From a virus, in IMG/VR virus record IMGVR_UViG_3300042526_000286, positions 1-20,827 of that record: DNA of 20,827 nt; one strand, given 5' to 3'. The notes beneath the pieces are model-generated. The model searched no databases, had not been told where the DNA came from, and worked only from the letters and a program-made list of their open reading frames with translations. Position numbers and translations under genes: made by a program. This document shows positions 3,131-20,076 of the stretch, one piece after another. How positions within the stretch are numbered: position 1 is the stretch's first letter; every line of letters begins with the position of its first letter.

Positions 3131-3688
3131 TTAGTCTTCAGTTATCCAAGAATCTATAACAATACTTGATAAATCTTCGATTGCACCAGCAGATAACCAA
3201 TAAATAGGTTCAGATTCTTTAGCAGTAGCAGTAAAAGTATAACCATTAATTCCATCTATAGTTCCACCTAAATCTGATTTACCCGTTATCTGACAACCGT
3301 TTTCAGTTCCCATTATGAAATGTTTACCATTATTCATCTTACATATCAAAAATGGTCTACCCTTAGCCATCATCTTGAATTGATATTCCATCTCCTTACC
3401 TAAATTAGGTAGTACAAAGGTTAAAGAAGGTGAATACATAGTAGTAAAGTTATCTTCACTAAATGTTTGTGTTTGAGTAAAAGCATTAGTTGTATGCCTT
3501 AATTCAAATTTAGCAGAAGAAGCAGCTGGTATTAATCCAGTAGAAAGTAATTCATGACCAGCTTCATTTGAAACTGTTTGTCCATCAAATGCTCCTTCTA
3601 AGAAATTCATTAAATATATTGATTTGATTCCTGCTGTTAAATTTTTACAAGATAATAGTTTCTTACCTTTTGTTATATTACAACCCAT
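3131..3688 (-). CDS. Virion structural protein, paralogue 2 (185 aa; major tail protein candidate)
   Basis: A close paralogue of the 193-residue product just upstream. By hand alignment 98 of 111 residues are identical from KFELRHTTNAFTQ to WLSAGAI, while residues about 28-60 and the last 15 differ. Both open with C-N-I-[TS]-K-G-K-x-L-L-[ST]-C-K-N-L-T-A-G-I-K, including two Cys. Lack of enzyme motifs, strong terminators on both sides and proximity to the capsid gene point to an abundant virion protein. A tail tube or a capsid decoration protein are the leading options. After the TAA stop the same frame stays open for 16 codons (TTPSPIIPCHPGQMCD) to a second TAA, so the ancestor may have been longer or rare readthrough may occur. 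The start is an ATG with an A/T-rich leader. Confidence 0.65.
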   Translation of the reverse strand: MGCNITKGKKLLSCKNLTAGIKSIYLMNFLEGAFDGQTVSNEAGHELLSTGLIPAASSAKFELRHTTNAFTQTQTFSEDNFTTMYSPSLTFVLPNLGKEMEYQFKMMAKGRPFLICKMNNGKHFIMGTENGCQITGKSDLGGTIDGINGYTFTATAKESEPIYWLSAGAIEDLSSIVIDSWITED

Positions 3689-3789: not shown

Positions 3790-4371
3790 TTATGCAGGAA
3801 GATCTTCTCCAACAAATAAAGTAGAAGTCATAGTACCCAATCCAGTTATTGCACCAGCAGATAACCAAAAGATTGGCTCTGATTCTTTAGCAGTAGCAGT
3901 AAATGTGTACCCATTAGCAGCATCAATTGTACCACCTAAGTCAGATTTACCTGTTATTTGGCAACCGTTTTCAGTTCCCATTACGAAATATTTTCCGTTA
4001 TTCATTTGACAGAACAAGAATGGTCTTCCCCAAGCCATCATTTTCCATTGGTATTCCATTTCTTTTCCAAGATTTGGTAGTACAAATGTCAATGAAGGAG
4101 CATACATAGTAGTGTAGTTATCTTCACTAGCTGTTTGTGCTTGAGTAAAAGCATTAGTTGTATGTCTTAATTCGAATTTGTAAGCTTTTGTAGTAGGAGA
4201 ATCTGCTGTTAAACCTGCAACTGTATTTAATATATGACCAGTTTCGGTAGAAGTGGTACCACTAGGTGTTAATCCTCCGTCTTTGAAATCTACTAAATAT
4301 ATTGCTTTGATACCTGCTGTTAAATTCTTACAAGTTAAAAGGGCTTTCCCCTTTGATATATTACAAGGCAT
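3790..4371 (-). CDS. Virion structural protein, paralogue 1 (193 aa; major tail protein candidate)
   Basis: The 193-residue product follows the major capsid gene and is a tandem paralogue of the next gene. It opens MPCNISKGKALLTCKNLTAG, then has a variable Gly/Thr-rich segment (about 32-65) and a highly conserved core from KFELRHTTNAF to WLSAGAI. The core is rich in aromatic and Gly residues and in predicted beta strands, as expected for a tube or decoration subunit. There is no signal peptide or catalytic motif. Two conserved Cys (positions 3 and 13) occur in both copies. The gene is bounded by a stem-loop upstream and a strong terminator downstream, so it is probably produced at high level together with the capsid protein. 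Tail tube protein is my preferred call; a head fibre or decoration protein cannot be excluded. Confidence 0.65.
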   Translation of the reverse strand: MPCNISKGKALLTCKNLTAGIKAIYLVDFKDGGLTPSGTTSTETGHILNTVAGLTADSPTTKAYKFELRHTTNAFTQAQTASEDNYTTMYAPSLTFVLPNLGKEMEYQWKMMAWGRPFLFCQMNNGKYFVMGTENGCQITGKSDLGGTIDAANGYTFTATAKESEPIFWLSAGAITGLGTMTSTLFVGEDLPA

Positions 4372-5365: not shown

Positions 5366-7144
5366 TTATTTATTTTGAACTATTCTTGATAATGCCTCCA
5401 TTGTTGATTCTGCCCCTTTAGATTTAACTTGATTAGCTTTTAATCTTGTGTCTTTCGGTTTAGCGGATAGTTCTGCATTTAAGTTTAAAACACTGTCTCT
5501 TTCTTGTGTTATAATTTCAAGTTGCTTAGAAAGAATATCAATCTTTTCTAAAAGTTTATCAATGTCAATTTGTTCTATTGGTTGTTCAACCTCTATTGCA
5601 ATATCTTCAGCTACTGTCATAATCTCCTCGATTGCTGCATCAGATGCTTCATTCATTTCAACAGGTTCAACTTCCGTAGCTGGTTCCATTTCTGGTTCAA
5701 CTTCTTCTTGTACTACTTCTACTTTTTCAACGATTTTACCAGTTTCATCAGTAGTGTAAGTGTACCCTTCATACTCGAAAGTTTGGCTTACTAATGGTAA
5801 TTGCTCACCTTCTGTTTCTTGATAAACAACGTTATCTAATTCGAAAGCATCAGCTGTAAGATTACCGAATCCTTCAACCATCATAGTAGCTAATTTTACA
5901 TCAGCACTAAACATTTCAATTAATTTTTTTAACATACTCATTTTTTTCTTTTTTAATTTTAGTTTTGTAACATTCTTTGGTAGAAATACTTCTTCATTTA
6001 TAGATAATATTAAATCGTCAACTTCCTGTTGGTCTATAAGGATCCAATTATCGGATGGCTGACCTTCACCTTTTGTTATAAAAGTATCTATTATCTCCGA
6101 AGGTACCTCTTCTTGATTAGAAACACTACAATTGCATTCTGTTACATTTTCTTTGGAAAGTCTCCAGTGATTGTTAGCAGAACTCGCTGTTTGTGATACT
6201 TCTGATGGATTAACCTCCAAGATGGCTTTAACAGCATCTGCTTTAGATAAACCACCTATATAGTCTAATGCTTCTTTAAGTGTCATACCAGTAGCATTAT
6301 TTTTATTTAGATAAATCTGTCTCAACCAAGCATGTCTGCAATTAACTCCACCTTTATATTTGAAAAGGTTGTAGTAATCTGATCCATTAGGTCCGAATCC
6401 GGGATTAACTGATCCAGCCGTTAGTATATCTTCTTTTCTGTAAACAAGATCAGCAGTGGTCATTCTAATGCAAAAATCTCTAGAGTTTAAACTAGTTCCT
6501 GAAGGTGAATATTTATATCTAACCTTGAATAGTTCATTATCTTGTTCACTTATTGCATCTGGGTTTGCATCTATTGCTTGTGCTAATTCAACTTGTGCTT
6601 GTGCATTCATTAGCACCTTTTCCATTTGAATGTAACTATCAATTGAAAATCCTTTAGCCACACCGGTTGTAATATATTCATCCCAAAGTGGTTGTGATAA
6701 CTTCATAGTAATCATCCAAGTTCCCATTGGTAAACCTTTGAAATTTAATGCGTTAGCTTTATCATTCTTTGGATCAACTATTAGCCAACTTTCTACTACT
6801 GATGTTCCATCCAACCATAACTTATCGTCGTGATTATATGTTGTATTTCTCTGGTAACCCTTAGTTAAGAAATCTTGAGATAGTCTTTCTATAACTGGTT
6901 CGTCAAAATAGATTTCGTATTCCGAACCATCTTTATTAACTCTTGGTATTCTTTGATTTGGAATAAGAACCACACCAGTTAATAATCTTTTTTGGGAATC
7001 GCTTACTTGTAAATTAACTACCTTTCTACCTTCTTTAGATAAGGTTAGAAAGTCATAAAGATTAGCTGGATTATCTACTATAGATATTCCATAAAGATCT
7101 CCGTCGGTTTCGTCATTATAAACAATTTTATATAGTTCCTTCAT
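5366..7144 (-). CDS. Prohead protease (XkdF-like) fused to MuF-like segment and scaffold
   Basis: A 592-residue multidomain protein. Residues 1-175 match the XkdF-like phage serine protease: GISIVDNPAN near the start, LTGVVLIPNQRIPR (55-68), NHD (H105 likely catalytic), GTWMITMKLSQPLWDEY (141-157) and GFSID (S167, likely nucleophile). Residues about 210-280 hold FCIRM...YRKEDI...KGGVNCRHAW (264-273), a Cys/His pattern like the C-terminal part of MuF-type head proteins; this call is tentative. A Lys-rich linker (395-401) leads to residues 402-592, a scaffold-like region: an MSMLKKLIEMFSADVKL start, a Glu-rich tract (473-525) and a coiled coil (about 527-560). Such maturation proteases process scaffold and themselves during capsid expansion. 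ATG 402 sits behind an A-rich tract, so a free 191-residue scaffold may also be made, like Nu3 within lambda C. Confidence 0.78.
   Translation of the reverse strand: MKELYKIVYNDETDGDLYGISIVDNPANLYDFLTLSKEGRKVVNLQVSDSQKRLLTGVVLIPNQRIPRVNKDGSEYEIYFDEPVIERLSQDFLTKGYQRNTTYNHDDKLWLDGTSVVESWLIVDPKNDKANALNFKGLPMGTWMITMKLSQPLWDEYITTGVAKGFSIDSYIQMEKVLMNAQAQVELAQAIDANPDAISEQDNELFKVRYKYSPSGTSLNSRDFCIRMTTADLVYRKEDILTAGSVNPGFGPNGSDYYNLFKYKGGVNCRHAWLRQIYLNKNNATGMTLKEALDYIGGLSKADAVKAILEVNPSEVSQTASSANNHWRLSKENVTECNCSVSNQEEVPSEIIDTFITKGEGQPSDNWILIDQQEVDDLILSINEEVFLPKNVTKLKLKKKKMSMLKKLIEMFSADVKLATMMVEGFGNLTADAFELDNVVYQETEGEQLPLVSQTFEYEGYTYTTDETGKIVEKVEVVQEEVEPEMEPATEVEPVEMNEASDAAIEEIMTVAEDIAIEVEQPIEQIDIDKLLEKIDILSKQLEIITQERDSVLNLNAELSAKPKDTRLKANQVKSKGAESTMEALSRIVQNK
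5939..5954 (-). promoter_or_regulatory. Probable internal start site for a nested scaffold protein
   Basis: Minus-strand AAAAAAGAAAAAAATG places an in-frame ATG (codon 402 of the protease fusion) behind an A-rich tract like those at real starts in this window. The product would run to 5366 and have 191 residues. A second ATG follows two codons later. In frame the same bases encode the Lys-rich linker, so A-richness may also reflect that. Confidence 0.4.
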
Positions 7145-7190: not shown

Positions 7191-8936
7191 TTATAAGAAT
7201 GTTGCAGAATTTAATCTTGCTCTATCAAGTGATTGCTGATTAGTAACATCGCTACCAACTACATAAGCTTTAATAGGTTGGTTTTGTTGTTTACCTATTG
7301 TAGCAGCTAGTTGGTTAGTACCTGAGGAACCTACTACGTTAAATTGTGCTTGTGGAGCAGGTGGAGCAGTTGTTGAACCACCGGCATCACCACCACCACC
7401 AGCTCCAAGTATTTTCTTAGCTTTATTAATGTTACCAATAATCATAAGTGCAGAACCTGCATAGGAAAGTCCAGTAGCAATAGGACCTGCTAAAGGTGCT
7501 GCTGGTCCAGCTGCCTTAGCTGCTTCTTCACCAGCTTTAAGTGCCATTGGTACTGCAGTAGAGAATGCTTTTGCAGTATCAATACCGATAGCAGTTAATG
7601 CTAATCCTTTTTGAATACCTATTGTTGCTTTACTTCTACCAATACCAGCTGCTTCAATTTTCTCCATCCAGGCTTGACCGTCACTAACTAATCCTGTTGC
7701 TGCATCATAATAATCTTGTTTAGATTTTATCTTAGCATCATTCATTTCAATTTCTCTCTGAAGTTTTGCATCTTCTGAATCATAAATAAGTTGAGCATTT
7801 TCTGCTTCAAATTTACTTTGAGCATCTAATGTATCTTGTTTATATGTAGTATCTTTATCTCTTTTAGCTTGATTGGTTGAATCTATTAATGTTAATTCAT
7901 TTTCTGCAGTTGAAATATCTATATCAGATAGTTTTTGTGCTTCTATTTCTTTTGCTTCAACTTTTGGTGATTTTTTAGTAGGGTCAATATATGTTGATTT
8001 AGTTTCTAATTTACCAGCTGCAATATTTGCTTTAATAGTTTCTTCTGATGCTAATTTAGTATACTTAGCCTGTTCTTTTTGAGTATCTATTACTTTCTCT
8101 GCTATTGTTGTAGCAACAGCACTATATCCTAATAATGCTATCTTAGCTTTATCATACCAAGTAAGTTCAACTGCTTCACCAGATGCTAATTTAGCTGCTG
8201 CTTCTGCAGCTTTACCAACAAATAAGGCTGCTGTTGCTTTTGCTATCTGAGATTTAATATAGTTGTCGGTATTAGCAATCATTTTACGCTCAACCTCATC
8301 AAGAGTATTAACTTTACCAAATGCTTCACCTAATGTATCGTTATAGGTTTTTACTGCATCAGATTTCTTTATAATACCTTTCTTAGCCTCATTAACAGCT
8401 TCATTAACTGTTATTAAACTTTTATATACATCAGTTAAACTCTTAGTCACATCAGCCTGTGCTTCTGCATAAGCTTTGGTTTTAAATGTTGCTCCAGTTA
8501 CAGCATCAGTTACCTTATCCCAATTTGCTATAAGCAATCCTAATCCAATAATAAACAAACCTATACCTGTTGCTGCTAACGCTAATTTGAATCCTTTCAT
8601 TGCACCAGTAGATTCACCTACAATTAATGCATAAATTTTTTGATATGCTGCTCCAATTTTAGATTCAGTAGTAAATAAATCCATTGATTCAACTGCATCT
8701 TTAAAATCCATCGCAAGACCACCAGTAGCATTAGATAATAATCCCATTGCTCCCCCATTCTCTAAAATACCTTTTCTATTCTTATCTAATGATTCACTAT
8801 GTAAATTAGTTGAACTAGTTACCTTAGTTGTTGATGTTTCTAATCCATCAAGTGAATTTGATACTTTATTAATACCTTCTACACCAGCAGCAGTATCTAC
8901 ATTTATTACAATAGTTTTTTCTATTTTATCGCTCAT
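7191..8936 (-). CDS. Tail tape measure protein
   Basis: A 581-residue, Ala/Lys/Thr-rich, mostly helical protein. A hydrophobic segment LALAATGIGLFIIGLGLLIA (118-137) looks like the membrane-active helix common in tape measures. Long Lys/Glu/Ala helices (about 150-410) suggest coiled coil. The C-terminal part (450-510), with AFSTAVPMALKAGEEAAKAA followed by a Gly/Pro/Ala-rich stretch and a second hydrophobic segment (about 489-501), then a Gly-rich linker, is a pattern I know from tape measures of Bacteroidota phages. The protein sets tail length and probably helps DNA pass the host envelope. By the usual 0.15 nm per residue, 581 residues would give a tail near 85-90 nm, short for a siphovirus. 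Its ATG overlaps the preceding stop by one base (TAATG). Confidence 0.8.
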   Translation of the reverse strand: MSDKIEKTIVINVDTAAGVEGINKVSNSLDGLETSTTKVTSSTNLHSESLDKNRKGILENGGAMGLLSNATGGLAMDFKDAVESMDLFTTESKIGAAYQKIYALIVGESTGAMKGFKLALAATGIGLFIIGLGLLIANWDKVTDAVTGATFKTKAYAEAQADVTKSLTDVYKSLITVNEAVNEAKKGIIKKSDAVKTYNDTLGEAFGKVNTLDEVERKMIANTDNYIKSQIAKATAALFVGKAAEAAAKLASGEAVELTWYDKAKIALLGYSAVATTIAEKVIDTQKEQAKYTKLASEETIKANIAAGKLETKSTYIDPTKKSPKVEAKEIEAQKLSDIDISTAENELTLIDSTNQAKRDKDTTYKQDTLDAQSKFEAENAQLIYDSEDAKLQREIEMNDAKIKSKQDYYDAATGLVSDGQAWMEKIEAAGIGRSKATIGIQKGLALTAIGIDTAKAFSTAVPMALKAGEEAAKAAGPAAPLAGPIATGLSYAGSALMIIGNINKAKKILGAGGGGDAGGSTTAPPAPQAQFNVVGSSGTNQLAATIGKQQNQPIKAYVVGSDVTNQQSLDRARLNSATFL

Positions 8937-14522: not shown

Positions 14523-14999
14523 TTATTTTATTTTATTATCTATTTCGTCCATTAAATCATCGGCTACCGAGTTTGCAAGTATGTTAGCAAATTGATTCAT
14601 CTTAGCATCGAAATCGATAGATATGAATAAGGTTGGTCTGATACCGTTTTTATAGATACTTCTTGCTATTGCAAATTGTAATCCTTTTCTTGATTGGAAC
14701 TGTCCTCTTCCGTTTCTTGGTGCTATTCCCTTTCTAACTATCCATTTGTCAAACACACTAGCAGGTGGCATTCTATTGGTATAAGAATATGGGGTATTGA
14801 ATTTACGTTCTGTCCCACTAACCCCTTTGTCTAGGTACTTACCATAGTTAGCCATTAGAATTTCGATTGTGTTGTCATCATTGATAACAAAGTCGATTGA
14901 TTTAGCTAATTCTCCACTTGCTACTGGAACTCTGTTTCTTAGAGTATCACAATATTCGTTAAAGAATTGGGAGATAGTTTGGTGTTGATTTACTAACAT
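14523..14999 (-). CDS. HK97-gp10-like neck / head-tail joining protein
   Basis: A 158-residue protein with the hallmark of the HK97-gp10-like family: an N-terminal helix, then RVPVASGELAKSI (19-31) and a strand-turn YGKYLDKGVSGTERKF (52-67), followed by helical segments and the strand PTLFISIDF. Members join the head to the tail as part of the neck. A short basic loop (RKGIAPRNGRGQFQSRKGLQ, 89-108) is also family-like. The gene overlaps the preceding one by 7 bases (ATGTTAG, where the upstream stop is TAG), which fits coupled synthesis of neck and tail-terminator proteins. The order neck after terminator is reversed compared with many siphoviruses. The ATG is the only in-frame start consistent with the conserved N-terminal helix. 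Confidence 0.7.
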   Translation of the reverse strand: MLVNQHQTISQFFNEYCDTLRNRVPVASGELAKSIDFVINDDNTIEILMANYGKYLDKGVSGTERKFNTPYSYTNRMPPASVFDKWIVRKGIAPRNGRGQFQSRKGLQFAIARSIYKNGIRPTLFISIDFDAKMNQFANILANSVADDLMDEIDNKIK

Positions 15000-15451
15000 A
15001 TGCTTATAACATCATTTGGAGCCATCAAAGTTAATTGTAGAACTAACCCATCCAGTATATTGAAATCTTTCATTAGAAGCGGTGTAGCGCTTGTAACGCT
15101 GTCTAAAATGATCTCGTATTCATTCTCCTGAAGTGTAAGGTAGGTTACCAAGTCATTCAATATAGCATAACAAAGATTTAGATTATCTATTACATTATCG
15201 TTACCTTCAAACTTAGTATTAGTGTCTTCCTTATTGATATTTCTTTGTTCGAATACACCAACCTCAAAAGTAAACATAGATACCTGGGAGTTTCTAAAAG
15301 GTATTTCCATTGGATTGATATGAGCTAATGGATAGATTGCCTTTTTATATAAATCTTTCTCTTCTGTTCTAGAGAAGACAACAGTATTAACCTGCTCGTT
15401 CGATTCGAGTCTAGCTTTTATTAGATTTACTGCATTATAGAAATTATTCAT
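14993..15451 (-). CDS. Tail terminator / tail completion-like protein
   Basis: A 152-residue alpha/beta protein. The opening helix (NAVNLIKARLESNEQVNTVV), then AIYPLAHINPMEIPF (38-52), and MFTFEVGVFEQR (59-70) match a pattern I know from small proteins next to the neck genes in Bacteroidota phages: an N-terminal helix, a conserved FPLAHI-like strand and an exposed FxVxVxxxD/E strand. Tail terminator proteins cap the tail tube and connect it to the neck, and this family looks like that fold. A later segment VIDNLNLCYAILNDLVTYL (86-104) forms the second main helix. The stop codon is TAG, unlike most genes here, and is followed directly in frame by TAA. The role is inferred from pattern and its place beside the HK97-gp10-like gene. 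Confidence 0.6.
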   Translation of the reverse strand: MNNFYNAVNLIKARLESNEQVNTVVFSRTEEKDLYKKAIYPLAHINPMEIPFRNSQVSMFTFEVGVFEQRNINKEDTNTKFEGNDNVIDNLNLCYAILNDLVTYLTLQENEYEIILDSVTSATPLLMKDFNILDGLVLQLTLMAPNDVISIC

Positions 15452-15461
15452 AGTTGGTATT

Positions 15462-15477
15462 ATTTATTTAAAAACAT
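15462..15477 (-). promoter_or_regulatory. TGTTTTTAA leader motif before the tail-terminator gene
   Basis: Minus-strand ATGTTTTTAAATAAAT begins 26 bases before the ATG at 15451. Its first ATG overlaps the stop of the -1 frame (TAATG) and could begin a 5-codon mini-ORF (MFLNK). It matches the leader at 7149-7169 almost base for base. Confidence 0.4.
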
Positions 15478-15776
15478 TAAACATTACTTGTGTTTTGCGA
15501 TCTGGCAATTCTGGCTGCATCCAGTTGGGATTTCCTTGTATAGAAGTTCATGAATGTTAGAAATTCGATGGCTGGGGATTGGAGAACCTCTTCTATTTTT
15601 AGATAGTCTTCCTTAGCTGCAATGTATAACATTGGGTACCAACCAAACTCCTCTGCAAATTCCTCTTCATCTCCTACGAAATCGGTTGGATTCCCTTCTG
15701 GTCCTTCTTCTACTACTTCTTCCCTTTGTTTGTATAAATATCCACACCTATCAATAAATCCTTGTTTAGTTCCCAA
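15477..15776 (-). CDS. -1 frame extension of the tail assembly chaperone (GT-like)
   Basis: A 99-residue open frame overlaps the end of the 180-residue gene in the -1 frame. It has no ATG or GTG start and no ribosome site; its only possible start is a TTG inside the slippery T run. It is therefore best read as the downstream half of a frameshift product: 160 residues of the first frame, ending MVFF, then LGTKQGFIDRCGYLYKQREE and onward, 259 residues in total. The extension has an acidic stretch (GDEEEFAEEF) and a helical part, YPMLYIAAKEDYLKIEEV. Lambda G/GT and many other tailed phages make two chaperones this way, the longer one bridging tape measure and tube protein. The -1 frame is closed by TAA upstream near 15840, so it cannot be an independent gene with a normal start. 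Confidence 0.75.
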   Translation of the reverse strand: MGTKQGFIDRCGYLYKQREEVVEEGPEGNPTDFVGDEEEFAEEFGWYPMLYIAAKEDYLKIEEVLQSPAIEFLTFMNFYTRKSQLDAARIARSQNTSNV

Positions 15777-16255
15777 AAAAAAACCATCGCTCCTAGATAG
15801 ATTTCTATTGATACCTTCTTCATGGTATTTATATCTTCTTTAGTGGTACCTCTATATTGGGATAACCTATAGTTTTTATTCTTCTTGTCTTTACTAACTA
15901 TTGGTCTATATAATATTGATAACATTTCAGGAATCGCGGTTTCTTCTTTTTGAAAATCATCCAGATCTATATACTCCGCAGTTGTTATCTCTTCAAGATT
16001 TGGTATGAATCCATATTCTGTCCCGCGGTATTCGAATCTTTCTATAAATCTTGGGGGTTGTGCTAATAGATCTAGGATTCCACTTATGATAGTTGAACTC
16101 TCCTTAATTGTGGATTCATCAAAATAGTAATCAGCTATGCCTTTTAATATTTTACCATCATCCTTCTTATAAACCCCAATTATCATTTTCATATGTAGAT
16201 AATCTTCTACTGAAATGTCATTCAATGTTTGTGGTATTGGTCTTCTTAATTTCAT
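15713..16255 (-). CDS. Tail assembly chaperone-like protein (G-like, 0 frame)
   Basis: A 180-residue product in the zero frame. It is mainly helical, with YLHMKMIIGVYKKDDGKILK near the N-terminus, a central strand segment FEYRGTEYGFIPNLEEITTA, a conserved-looking SILYRPI, and a C-terminal GAMVFFWELNKDLL. I know this pattern from Bacteroidota phages, where it sits in the packaging/tail region. The codons for VFFW contain nine T residues, a slippery site leading into the overlapping -1 frame. Its ATG overlaps the terminase stop by one base (TAATG). In most siphoviruses the chaperone gene lies directly before the tape measure gene; here the two are about 7 kb apart. The chaperone call rests on the frameshift layout more than on sequence similarity. 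Confidence 0.65.
   Translation of the reverse strand: MKLRRPIPQTLNDISVEDYLHMKMIIGVYKKDDGKILKGIADYYFDESTIKESSTIISGILDLLAQPPRFIERFEYRGTEYGFIPNLEEITTAEYIDLDDFQKEETAIPEMLSILYRPIVSKDKKNKNYRLSQYRGTTKEDINTMKKVSIEIYLGAMVFFWELNKDLLIGVDIYTNKGKK
15775..15783 (-). other. T9 slippery site for programmed -1 frameshifting
   Basis: Minus-strand reads ATG GTT TTT TTT TGG in the zero frame, so T TTT TTT forms a perfect X XXY YYZ heptamer. A -1 slip at 15776 enters the open frame of the 99-residue extension. An AGGAG lies 7 bases upstream of the heptamer (15794-15790), which could stimulate slippage in SD-using hosts, but Bacteroidota ribosomes make little use of such sites. A run of nine T could also cause RNA polymerase slippage, giving a mix of transcripts with the same protein result. 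Confidence 0.8.
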
Positions 16256-17565
16256 TATCTTATTCTAAATTTTTTAACTGTTGGCGTGAGGGTAAACCAC
16301 ATCCTCATCATTATGGTATCACTGTAATCAGGAGATCTTCCTATTAACTGTTTAACCTCGGTTTTAGGCATTATTTTTAATTTACCATCTGAATCTATAT
16401 CTGCCGCTTTTATTTGCTCTAATTCTTCAATTATTGCATCTTGTTGTGCCTGGGATAGTTCTGCTGATATATATATCGAATCAGAATTAATCATGTCTGC
16501 TAATTTATAATAACATTGGGTTTTTAGATTCTGGAAATTCTCGTCATTTAAACATTTTGAGTTGTTAACAAAATCCTTGATTCTAAGGTTGTCAACTAAA
16601 CCTCCACCCACACCATCACCATCGGCAATTATATGGTTACTACTAACATTGTATCTATTCTTTAAACCCAGAATAGCAGTTTGGAGATCTGTAATTTTAC
16701 TCGTAGCATAATCAAATATGTCAACGAGTTCAAAACCTCTCCATAAACATATAACAGCCTTATCAGACCCAAATCTTGCGACATCACAAGTAATATAATA
16801 TCTATCATTTTCATTTCGTACGTATGTGTTTGTGAATAGATTCAATATGTTATCGTATTCAACTAATTTTGTAGGATCGTCATCAGATTCCCAGTTACCT
16901 AATAATAGTCTTGACTTTTGTGCCTTAGGTAGAGACATTAAGTTGTCAATATAGTGTTGTGATATGAATGGATTATCTGTTACTAAAGCTTGGATAAAAC
17001 ATTTATGTGGTTCTATATCATTTATCTTTTGTGGTTTGTAGAATTCTTTATAAACCCAATTCTTGGATGGATTACAAGTTCCTAATATTTTTGGTATTAG
17101 CCCATACTCATCTAGCTTGTATCTAATACGGGATTTAACTATCTGCCAAGCTAATGCAACGGTTTGGTTAACCTCATCAATAAATGCTCCCGTTATCTCT
17201 AACGAACCTAATTCATCAAATTGTGGATCGGCAGGATAGTAAGCTAAATCTTTCATTAGTATCTCTGAACCATTTATGAAATGGATTGTGTTTGATGAAC
17301 CGTTAATAGTGAAATGTGTTCCATTAATAACTCCTTGCATCTTACATACTTCTAGAAATGAATTAAGTGTTGTCTCCTTAAGAGTCTTTAACTTCTTTCT
17401 CCCCATTAACCATCTAGTTCCAGGATATTTCAAACACATCTTTAATAACCAATAACAACCAAGAATAGATTTAGCTGAACCAGCACCACCTCCGAAGATT
17501 ATCTCTTTGTGGGTAGAGTCTTCTAGAATGTCTAGAGCTTCCGTTTGCTTACGTGTTAGTACCAA
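16255..17565 (-). CDS. terL: Terminase large subunit
   Basis: A 436-residue packaging motor ATPase and nuclease. Walker A is GGGAGSAKS (25-33, with Ala in place of the usual second Gly), Walker B is AFIDE (127-131, D130 and E131), and a coupling motif GTCNPS lies at 162-167. The nuclease domain shows DVARFGSDKA (D261), ADGDG (D315/D317) and the last acidic residue in PDYSDT (D416), the RNase-H-like metal triad. The start is a TTG at 17565 overlapping the small subunit gene by 17 bases; no ATG exists in frame before Walker A and a TAA lies three codons upstream, so TTG is the best start. It binds the portal and drives genome packaging into the prohead. The chaperone-like gene follows with a one-base overlap. 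Confidence 0.93.
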   Translation of the reverse strand: MVLTRKQTEALDILEDSTHKEIIFGGGAGSAKSILGCYWLLKMCLKYPGTRWLMGRKKLKTLKETTLNSFLEVCKMQGVINGTHFTINGSSNTIHFINGSEILMKDLAYYPADPQFDELGSLEITGAFIDEVNQTVALAWQIVKSRIRYKLDEYGLIPKILGTCNPSKNWVYKEFYKPQKINDIEPHKCFIQALVTDNPFISQHYIDNLMSLPKAQKSRLLLGNWESDDDPTKLVEYDNILNLFTNTYVRNENDRYYITCDVARFGSDKAVICLWRGFELVDIFDYATSKITDLQTAILGLKNRYNVSSNHIIADGDGVGGGLVDNLRIKDFVNNSKCLNDENFQNLKTQCYYKLADMINSDSIYISAELSQAQQDAIIEELEQIKAADIDSDGKLKIMPKTEVKQLIGRSPDYSDTIMMRMWFTLTPTVKKFRIR

Positions 17566-19395: not shown

Positions 19396-20076
19396 TTATA
19401 GTTTATTTAATGCTTTTTCATAAGCTTGATATGCTTCCTCCTCTGTTGCGAAGCATCCTAAATATATTCTTTTAGAACCTATTCTTATATGTGCTATCCA
19501 TTTATTCTTATTATTTTTTCCATAAGTGACCCCTACATATTTGGATGCTGTAGATTTTTTAGCATAACCAAGAGATGTATTCTGTCTATTTGTAACTAAT
19601 CTAAGATTTTCAAGTCTATTATCAGTTTTTATACCATTTATATGGTCTACAACTATGATATTTCCATTTGGTATATGGTTCAGAAATGCTATTGCCATAA
19701 ATTGATGAACCTTATTTATATTAGATTTTTTACCATCCACAGATAAAGTTGAACACAAATATTCTTTAATTGGGCTGGTTTTTAATATGATAGGGGTTCT
19801 ATTTTTTATACTAAGAATTCTTCCCTGGTTACTTATTTTATATCCTGGATGTTCTGGGATGTTAATGAAAAATTCATTTTCATTAACATTAATATATCTA
19901 TCTACCGATAAATTCCAATTATAATTATCTATTTGTTTATCCTGGGTTTCAATTATATTATTTCTAATAATAGATCTACTTAATCCAGTAATTTTTGATA
20001 CTGAATCCAAATAAATAAATTCAGAATTTTCAATCAATAGATTTATAGTTTTTTGTATTATAGATTTATCTTTCAT
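19396..20076 (-). CDS. HNH homing endonuclease with NUMOD4 and AP2 domains
   Basis: A 226-residue free-standing homing endonuclease. Residues 20-42 look like a helix-turn-helix (VSKITGLSRSIIRNN). A NUMOD4-type segment EHPGYKISNQGRILSI (75-90) follows. The HNH_3 nuclease core runs 122-165: VHQFMAIAFL (H124), VDHINGIKTDNRLENLRLVT (143-162, H145 and N147, N153 and N157) and NRQN. Residues 179-222 form an AP2-like DNA-binding domain (SKYVGVTYGKNNKNKWIAHI then YLGCFATEEEAYQAYEKAL). Such enzymes cut DNA lacking their own gene so that repair copies them in. No intron or split coding gene surrounds it, and neighbours are intact, so it sits between genes. Codon use is more A/T-rich than the neighbouring phosphoesterase gene, as expected for a mobile gene. 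HNH catalytic residues appear intact. Confidence 0.88.
   Translation of the reverse strand: MKDKSIIQKTINLLIENSEFIYLDSVSKITGLSRSIIRNNIIETQDKQIDNYNWNLSVDRYINVNENEFFINIPEHPGYKISNQGRILSIKNRTPIILKTSPIKEYLCSTLSVDGKKSNINKVHQFMAIAFLNHIPNGNIIVVDHINGIKTDNRLENLRLVTNRQNTSLGYAKKSTASKYVGVTYGKNNKNKWIAHIRIGSKRIYLGCFATEEEAYQAYEKALNKL

Follow-up and report, generated by a model that had tools for sequence, protein, structure and literature searches.

How many proteins are encoded by the gene beside the large terminase gene of this virus, what gives access to its second reading frame, and what might the products do? The window (the whole stretch of DNA that was analysed, 20,827 nucleotides, positions 1 to 20,827 of the record IMGVR_UViG_3300042526_000286) carries this gene on its minus strand. 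The original prediction was of a programmed frameshift at a run of nine T, in a gene laid out like the tail assembly chaperone genes G and GT of phage lambda. As a whole, we find it probable that one gene yields two products, G and GT, by ribosomal -1 slippage and that these act as a tail assembly chaperone pair. The features on which the argument draws are as follows.

16255 to 17565, minus strand: large terminase gene (TerL), directly upstream of G; PF04466, phrog_2.
15713 to 16255, minus strand: G, the zero-frame ORF, 180 aa (160 aa to the slip site plus a 20-aa zero-frame tail); matches phrog_32199; AlphaFold pLDDT 88.8.
15790 to 15794, minus strand: AGGAG in the sequence, a possible (speculative) Shine-Dalgarno-like stimulator, 8 nt before the P-site codon.
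15775 to 15783, minus strand: the T9 slip run, seen in the sequence; T7 or longer in 261 of 262 frameshifted gene copies.
15776 to 15782, minus strand: the in-frame heptamer T TTT TTT (codons GTT TTT TTT), intact in 261 of the 262 copies with the -1 arrangement.
15477 to 15776, minus strand: T, the extension in the -1 frame (99 aa and a stop codon), which has a conserved GWY motif; AlphaFold pLDDT 72.8, helical; matched by profile in this frame in 262 gene copies.
14993 to 15451, minus strand: the next gene downstream, 152 aa, in the same order in relatives.
14523 to 14999, minus strand: a 158-aa gene resembling tail-completion or neck proteins (by eye only), its order kept in relatives; phrog_29822, of unknown function.
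7191 to 8936, minus strand: candidate gene for the tape measure protein (581 aa), located about 6.5 kb beyond T in the downstream direction and so called from its size and its coiled and hydrophobic make-up; phrog_32985, of unknown function.

The slip site is as it had been described: the codons across T9 are ATG GTT TTT TTT TGG on the minus strand (GTT at 15784-15782, TTT TTT at 15781-15776, then TGG), with a perfect T TTT TTT heptamer in register. T9 at 15783-15775 is the only run of at least seven T on the window's coding strand. The -1 frame is open from about 15839 to its stop at 15477, and joining the frames at the last TTT gives the in-phase fusion of 259 aa (160+99) that had been proposed; under a first-order model of the window sequence, the probability that chance alone leaves the -1 frame open over 99 codons is about 3e-4. 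The -1 frame had also been said to contain no ATG or GTG: this holds for its early part, but there is an ATG at 15632-15630, about halfway through T and within the conserved domain. The AGGAG was not counted as a Shine-Dalgarno-like stimulator; relatives mostly have GGTGC at this place, encoding a conserved Gly-Ala.

Profiles of G and T were run over all loci in related viral contigs, after wider searches. The counts given here are of gene copies and not of independent phages, as some contigs are included under more than one locus; reduction left 96 clusters. Among 273 G genes, T was found in the -1 frame for 262, in the same frame for three and in the +1 frame for none, and was not found for the other eight (four are cut by a contig end, three are G-only paralogues, and one, L191, combines T9 with a divergent -1 frame recognisable by eye). 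At sequence level, two products with a common N-terminus and a -1 shift late in the first ORF are therefore encoded in 262 of the 265 copies where both G and T could be placed. The original prediction had named conservation of the run in related phages as a check, and the run lengths in the 262 copies are T9 (246 copies), T10 (11), T11 (two), T8 (one), T7 (one) and T5 (one). A search with an alignment of the N-terminal part only, a pattern far from the run, gave 81 loci; in all 81 the run is exactly T9, its register is unchanged, and the -1 frame after it has a (W)GWY-type domain that is complete in nearly all. T9 is kept in the gene after TerL by relatives whose TerL is about 50% identical. 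The T8 member (L078, GGT TTT TTT TAC) and the T7 member (L057, AAT TTT TTT ATG) both have the in-frame T TTT TTT; the one exception is L190 (2084-2844), where G and T are in the -1 arrangement with T5 only (GAA CTT TTT ACG) and which is the sister of L057 in the tree. Judged from these sequences, the -1 arrangement of G and T is not due to chance, and a programmed -1 transition is strongly supported, with hundreds of relatives keeping the run, the direction and the downstream domain.

Loss of the T run together with a start codon gained by the second frame, which had been named as the observation that would speak against the frameshift, was not seen as such among the relatives. The sole lineage without the frameshift has both domains in a single frame and a separate short gene added. 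It consists of L056, L107 (a second copy of the L056 contig) and L108, in which G and T share one open frame of 239-242 aa.

L056, 6552-8278: region with the single-frame GT and a G-only paralogue, neither with a T run.
L108, 838-2552: region with the single-frame GT and a G-only paralogue, neither with a T run.

The G-only paralogue is found two genes downstream of the fusion (in L056 it has 174 aa, at 7754-8278) and ends near the usual end of the zero-frame product. In L056 it is 40% identical to the G of L104 and 22% identical to the G part of its own fusion. A tree of the T domain places the L056/L108 lineage among the T9 members, beside the window (support 96 for the 14-row set; the inner forks are weaker), and a search with the fused protein found no further single-frame lineages. 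The simplest reading of these sequences is that the frameshift gene was replaced by two genes, which would be needless unless the short and the long product both matter; the lineage thus argues that both are needed. Taken together, the comparison shows a transition between frames with a fixed direction, conservation of the T domain, and one lineage that has a separate gene for each product.

The codons of the run appear to be under constraint. Its two Phe codons are TTT in all 96 clusters, in which TTC makes up 25% of the Phe codons upstream in G; at a conserved control Phe (in the GFIPN motif), TTC is used in 17 out of 74 (23%). In 84 of the 96 clusters, replacing the heptamer's final T by C would change the amino acid in neither frame, yet this C is never present. 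Such a C needs a CTR Leu codon in the -1 frame, and of the Leu codons of type TTR or CTR in T, roughly one in four is CTR. Multiplying the codon frequencies gives a very small probability, the exact figure of which is unreliable because of the shared ancestry of the clusters and this need for CTR Leu. With respect to tRNA-Phe pairing, a UUU codon in the A site can pair again after the shift at no cost, but with UUC a G-C pair is lost; the absence of C therefore does not discriminate between slippage of the ribosome and slippage of RNA polymerase.

If the ribosome slips, one gene would give two proteins with a common start: most ribosomes would read G (180 aa), and a minority would slip back by one base, with two Phe-tRNAs on T TTT TTT, and then read in the -1 frame to give GT (259 aa), adding the helical domain with its GWY motif. 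It is likely that the slipping agent is the ribosome and not RNA polymerase. A constant direction of the shift is a criterion for ribosomal frameshifting, and confirmed cases of transcriptional slippage have both directions among orthologues (PMC3711429); here the direction is constant over 262 copies (none in +1), which favours ribosomal -1 slippage on T TTT TTT. A slippery heptamer of the form X XXY YYZ is in the zero frame, as T TTT TTT, in all frameshifted relatives except L190. This last member counts against the ribosomal explanation, since tandem slippage on T is impossible with T5.

Slippage of RNA polymerase, which the original prediction had put forward as an equal possibility, would add a U at T9, and the share of mRNA with U10 would be read straight into T, giving the same proteins. 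We consider it unlikely, but to be taken seriously. The length of the run suits it: slippage is efficient at runs of nine A or T, and T9 is among the lengths that make bacterial RNA polymerase slip with high efficiency (PMC5009743), and the run has at least nine T in 259 of the 262 copies with the -1 arrangement. It is also consistent with a run that is never broken by C, even where this would be silent in both frames, and with the result for stimulators, as no downstream RNA structure above background was found in the 96 clusters (mean z of 0.04 as compared with 0.05 for the control, in a test with pseudoknots and conserved-structure models outside its scope). Against it, orthologues never shift to +1, unlike the confirmed transcriptional cases (PMC3711429), the T7 and T8 members persist with the in-frame heptamer intact, and a need for hydrophobic residues, encoded in one or the other frame, can also account for the two T outside the heptamer. 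The junction peptide MVFF-LGTK, which had been suggested as a target for mass spectrometry, would be the same under both mechanisms and cannot separate them. A broader form of the polymerase explanation, which we regard as doubtful, is that RNA polymerase slippage on T9, and not ribosomal frameshifting, sets the proportion of the two tail-building proteins in a large group of unannotated phages of Bacteroidota, with one branch having escaped by duplication of G and fusion of G with T; this would be the lambda system's transcriptional counterpart.

G and GT may be a pair of tail assembly chaperones analogous to those of lambda: G would cover the tape measure protein, tail tube subunits would be recruited through the T domain, and the slip rate would fix the ratio of G to GT. 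The layout agrees with this part of the original prediction, but the position is unlike that in lambda, and no kinship of G or T with a known tail chaperone, in sequence or in fold, was detected by profile search of the PDB, Foldseek or VIA (the best PDB fold scores being a Foldseek E of 0.9 and a VIA Z of 3.1; failing to match the PDB does not show that a fold is novel). Matches to the predicted structure of G were limited to phage proteins that are uncharacterised, one of P12024S among them, and the NCBIfam search gave matches at chance level only. Because the gene is not directly upstream of the tape measure gene, we do not file it as a member of the lambda-type G/GT genes, only as one that may work like them.

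Phage_Gp15 (PF06854), whose gene immediately precedes the tape measure gene in A118 and other Firmicutes phages, was also considered. L057 has a weak match to it (E = 7e-4, 20.1 bits, under the curated cut-off of 23), and the window has no match to this family. Kinship with Phage_Gp15 or gp14 of Firmicutes phages was rejected, as profile-profile comparison gave no support: with alignments built from A118 and its relatives, the hhalign probability is <1% for both families.

The products could instead be another morphogenesis protein with a minority long form, e.g. a head-tail connector or a terminase accessory protein, which would fit either slippage mechanism and which we think rather unlikely. 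The gene immediately follows TerL, with several genes between it and the candidate tape measure gene, and the lack of a homology or fold match to known chaperones is in keeping with such a role. On the other hand, its size, the layout with a shared N-terminus, a T domain that is small and helical, and the fact that both isoforms are retained all fit G/GT, and no other gene of the window has a long start-less frame overlap of a comparable kind.

The start ATG of G overlaps the stop of TerL. G and T are surrounded by TerL (PF04466), portal, protease and other virion genes, and the order of TerL and the next genes around G/T is kept in relatives. Several of the neighbouring genes have features of their own. 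At 3131-3688 and 3790-4371 of the window, after the likely major capsid gene, there are tandem paralogues (M.CNI.KGK.LL.CKNLTAGIK.IYL) that are candidate tail tube proteins. The portal protein (1156-2577) is extended at its C-terminus, and this additional part (residues 370-461) has matches to PHROGs 4256 and 4919 as well as a weak one to a phosphoheptose isomerase PHROG; it looks like a fused phosphatase-type domain. The gene at 5366-7144 encodes an XkdF-like protease domain and a segment matching the C-terminal part of the portal PHROG phrog_33693, a segment that seems to be placed in a different gene relative to that family. A 226-aa ORF at 19396-20076 has an HNH-like motif (VVDHINGIKTDNRLENLR) and is likely to be a homing endonuclease (by eye).

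The two halves of the gene fall into two PHROG families of unknown function. All 42 members of the family alignment match phrog_32199 with G (E = 3e-7 for the window), and six out of 42, the window itself not among them, match PHROG 38404 with T. The only annotated relatives found are the Nonlabens phages P12024L and P12024S, in which the halves are listed as two separate hypothetical proteins. The family is also found in a MAG labelled Bacteroidetes, and Bacteroidota is most likely the host group.

That T is an independent gene reached by re-initiation, with the T run incidental, is very improbable. P12024L is annotated in this way (gp40 and gp41), with an ATG at the stop codon of G. Nearly all of the 96 clusters have no usable start, though: in the -1 ORF, an ATG or GTG upstream of the run is found in two clusters and an ATG within 20 codons after the run in two, so separate starts are no general explanation for T; in addition, the T frame is conserved from the run itself, and the L056 lineage has a single-frame fusion. 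A pseudogene or a sequencing error is scarcely credible, as homopolymers are error-prone but the same arrangement occurs in 262 copies from many lineages and a second contig is identical to the window across the G/T gene.

A frameshifted tail chaperone is of a known kind; what is new is the poly-T site fixed across a whole unannotated group, the position beside TerL and the replacement by two genes. We found no report of a poly-T frameshift in tail genes of Bacteroidota phages in the open-access literature, a scope that excludes most subscription papers. Through the analysis, two PHROG families without a known function, found beside TerL in several hundred environmental Bacteroidota phage contigs, gain a probable role and an actual product, and the gene models of PHROGs 32199 and 38404 are corrected. 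The relatives also form a natural series (T11, T10, T9, T8, T7, T5 and no run) in which ribosomal and transcriptional slippage at long T runs could be told apart, and the two-gene lineage is a natural test of whether both isoforms are needed.

Besides Phage_Gp15, three known systems can be compared with the gene described here. One is gp40/gp41 of Nonlabens phage P12024L (JQ823123), which belongs to the same family: its run is also T9 and in register with that of the window (CTT TTT TTT TAT), its T domain is reached in the -1 frame, it is placed directly after TerL, and its G is 26% identical to that of the window over 59% of the window's G; unlike the window, it is annotated as two genes. In Thermus dnaX, T9 transcriptional slippage likewise uses a nine-T homopolymer to give access to another frame (PMC5009743); unlike at such sites, the direction here is constant in all orthologues found, and some of them have shorter runs with the ribosomal heptamer intact. 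The layout of lambda G/GT (Xu, Hendrix and Duda 2004, 2013), as outlined in the review PMC5009743, is kept across phages despite little sequence similarity, and the part of it described there is also found here: a short zero-frame product, a longer one with the same N-terminus made by a -1 shift near the end of the first ORF, and a second frame without a usable start. Further likenesses are isoform lengths of 180 and 259 aa, a T domain that is small and helical, and a location within the block of virion genes. The gene described here differs from lambda G/GT in that its slip site is T TTT TTT within T9, it has no detectable relation to G/GT in sequence or fold, it adjoins TerL instead of directly preceding the tape measure gene, and one of its lineages has replaced the shift by two genes.
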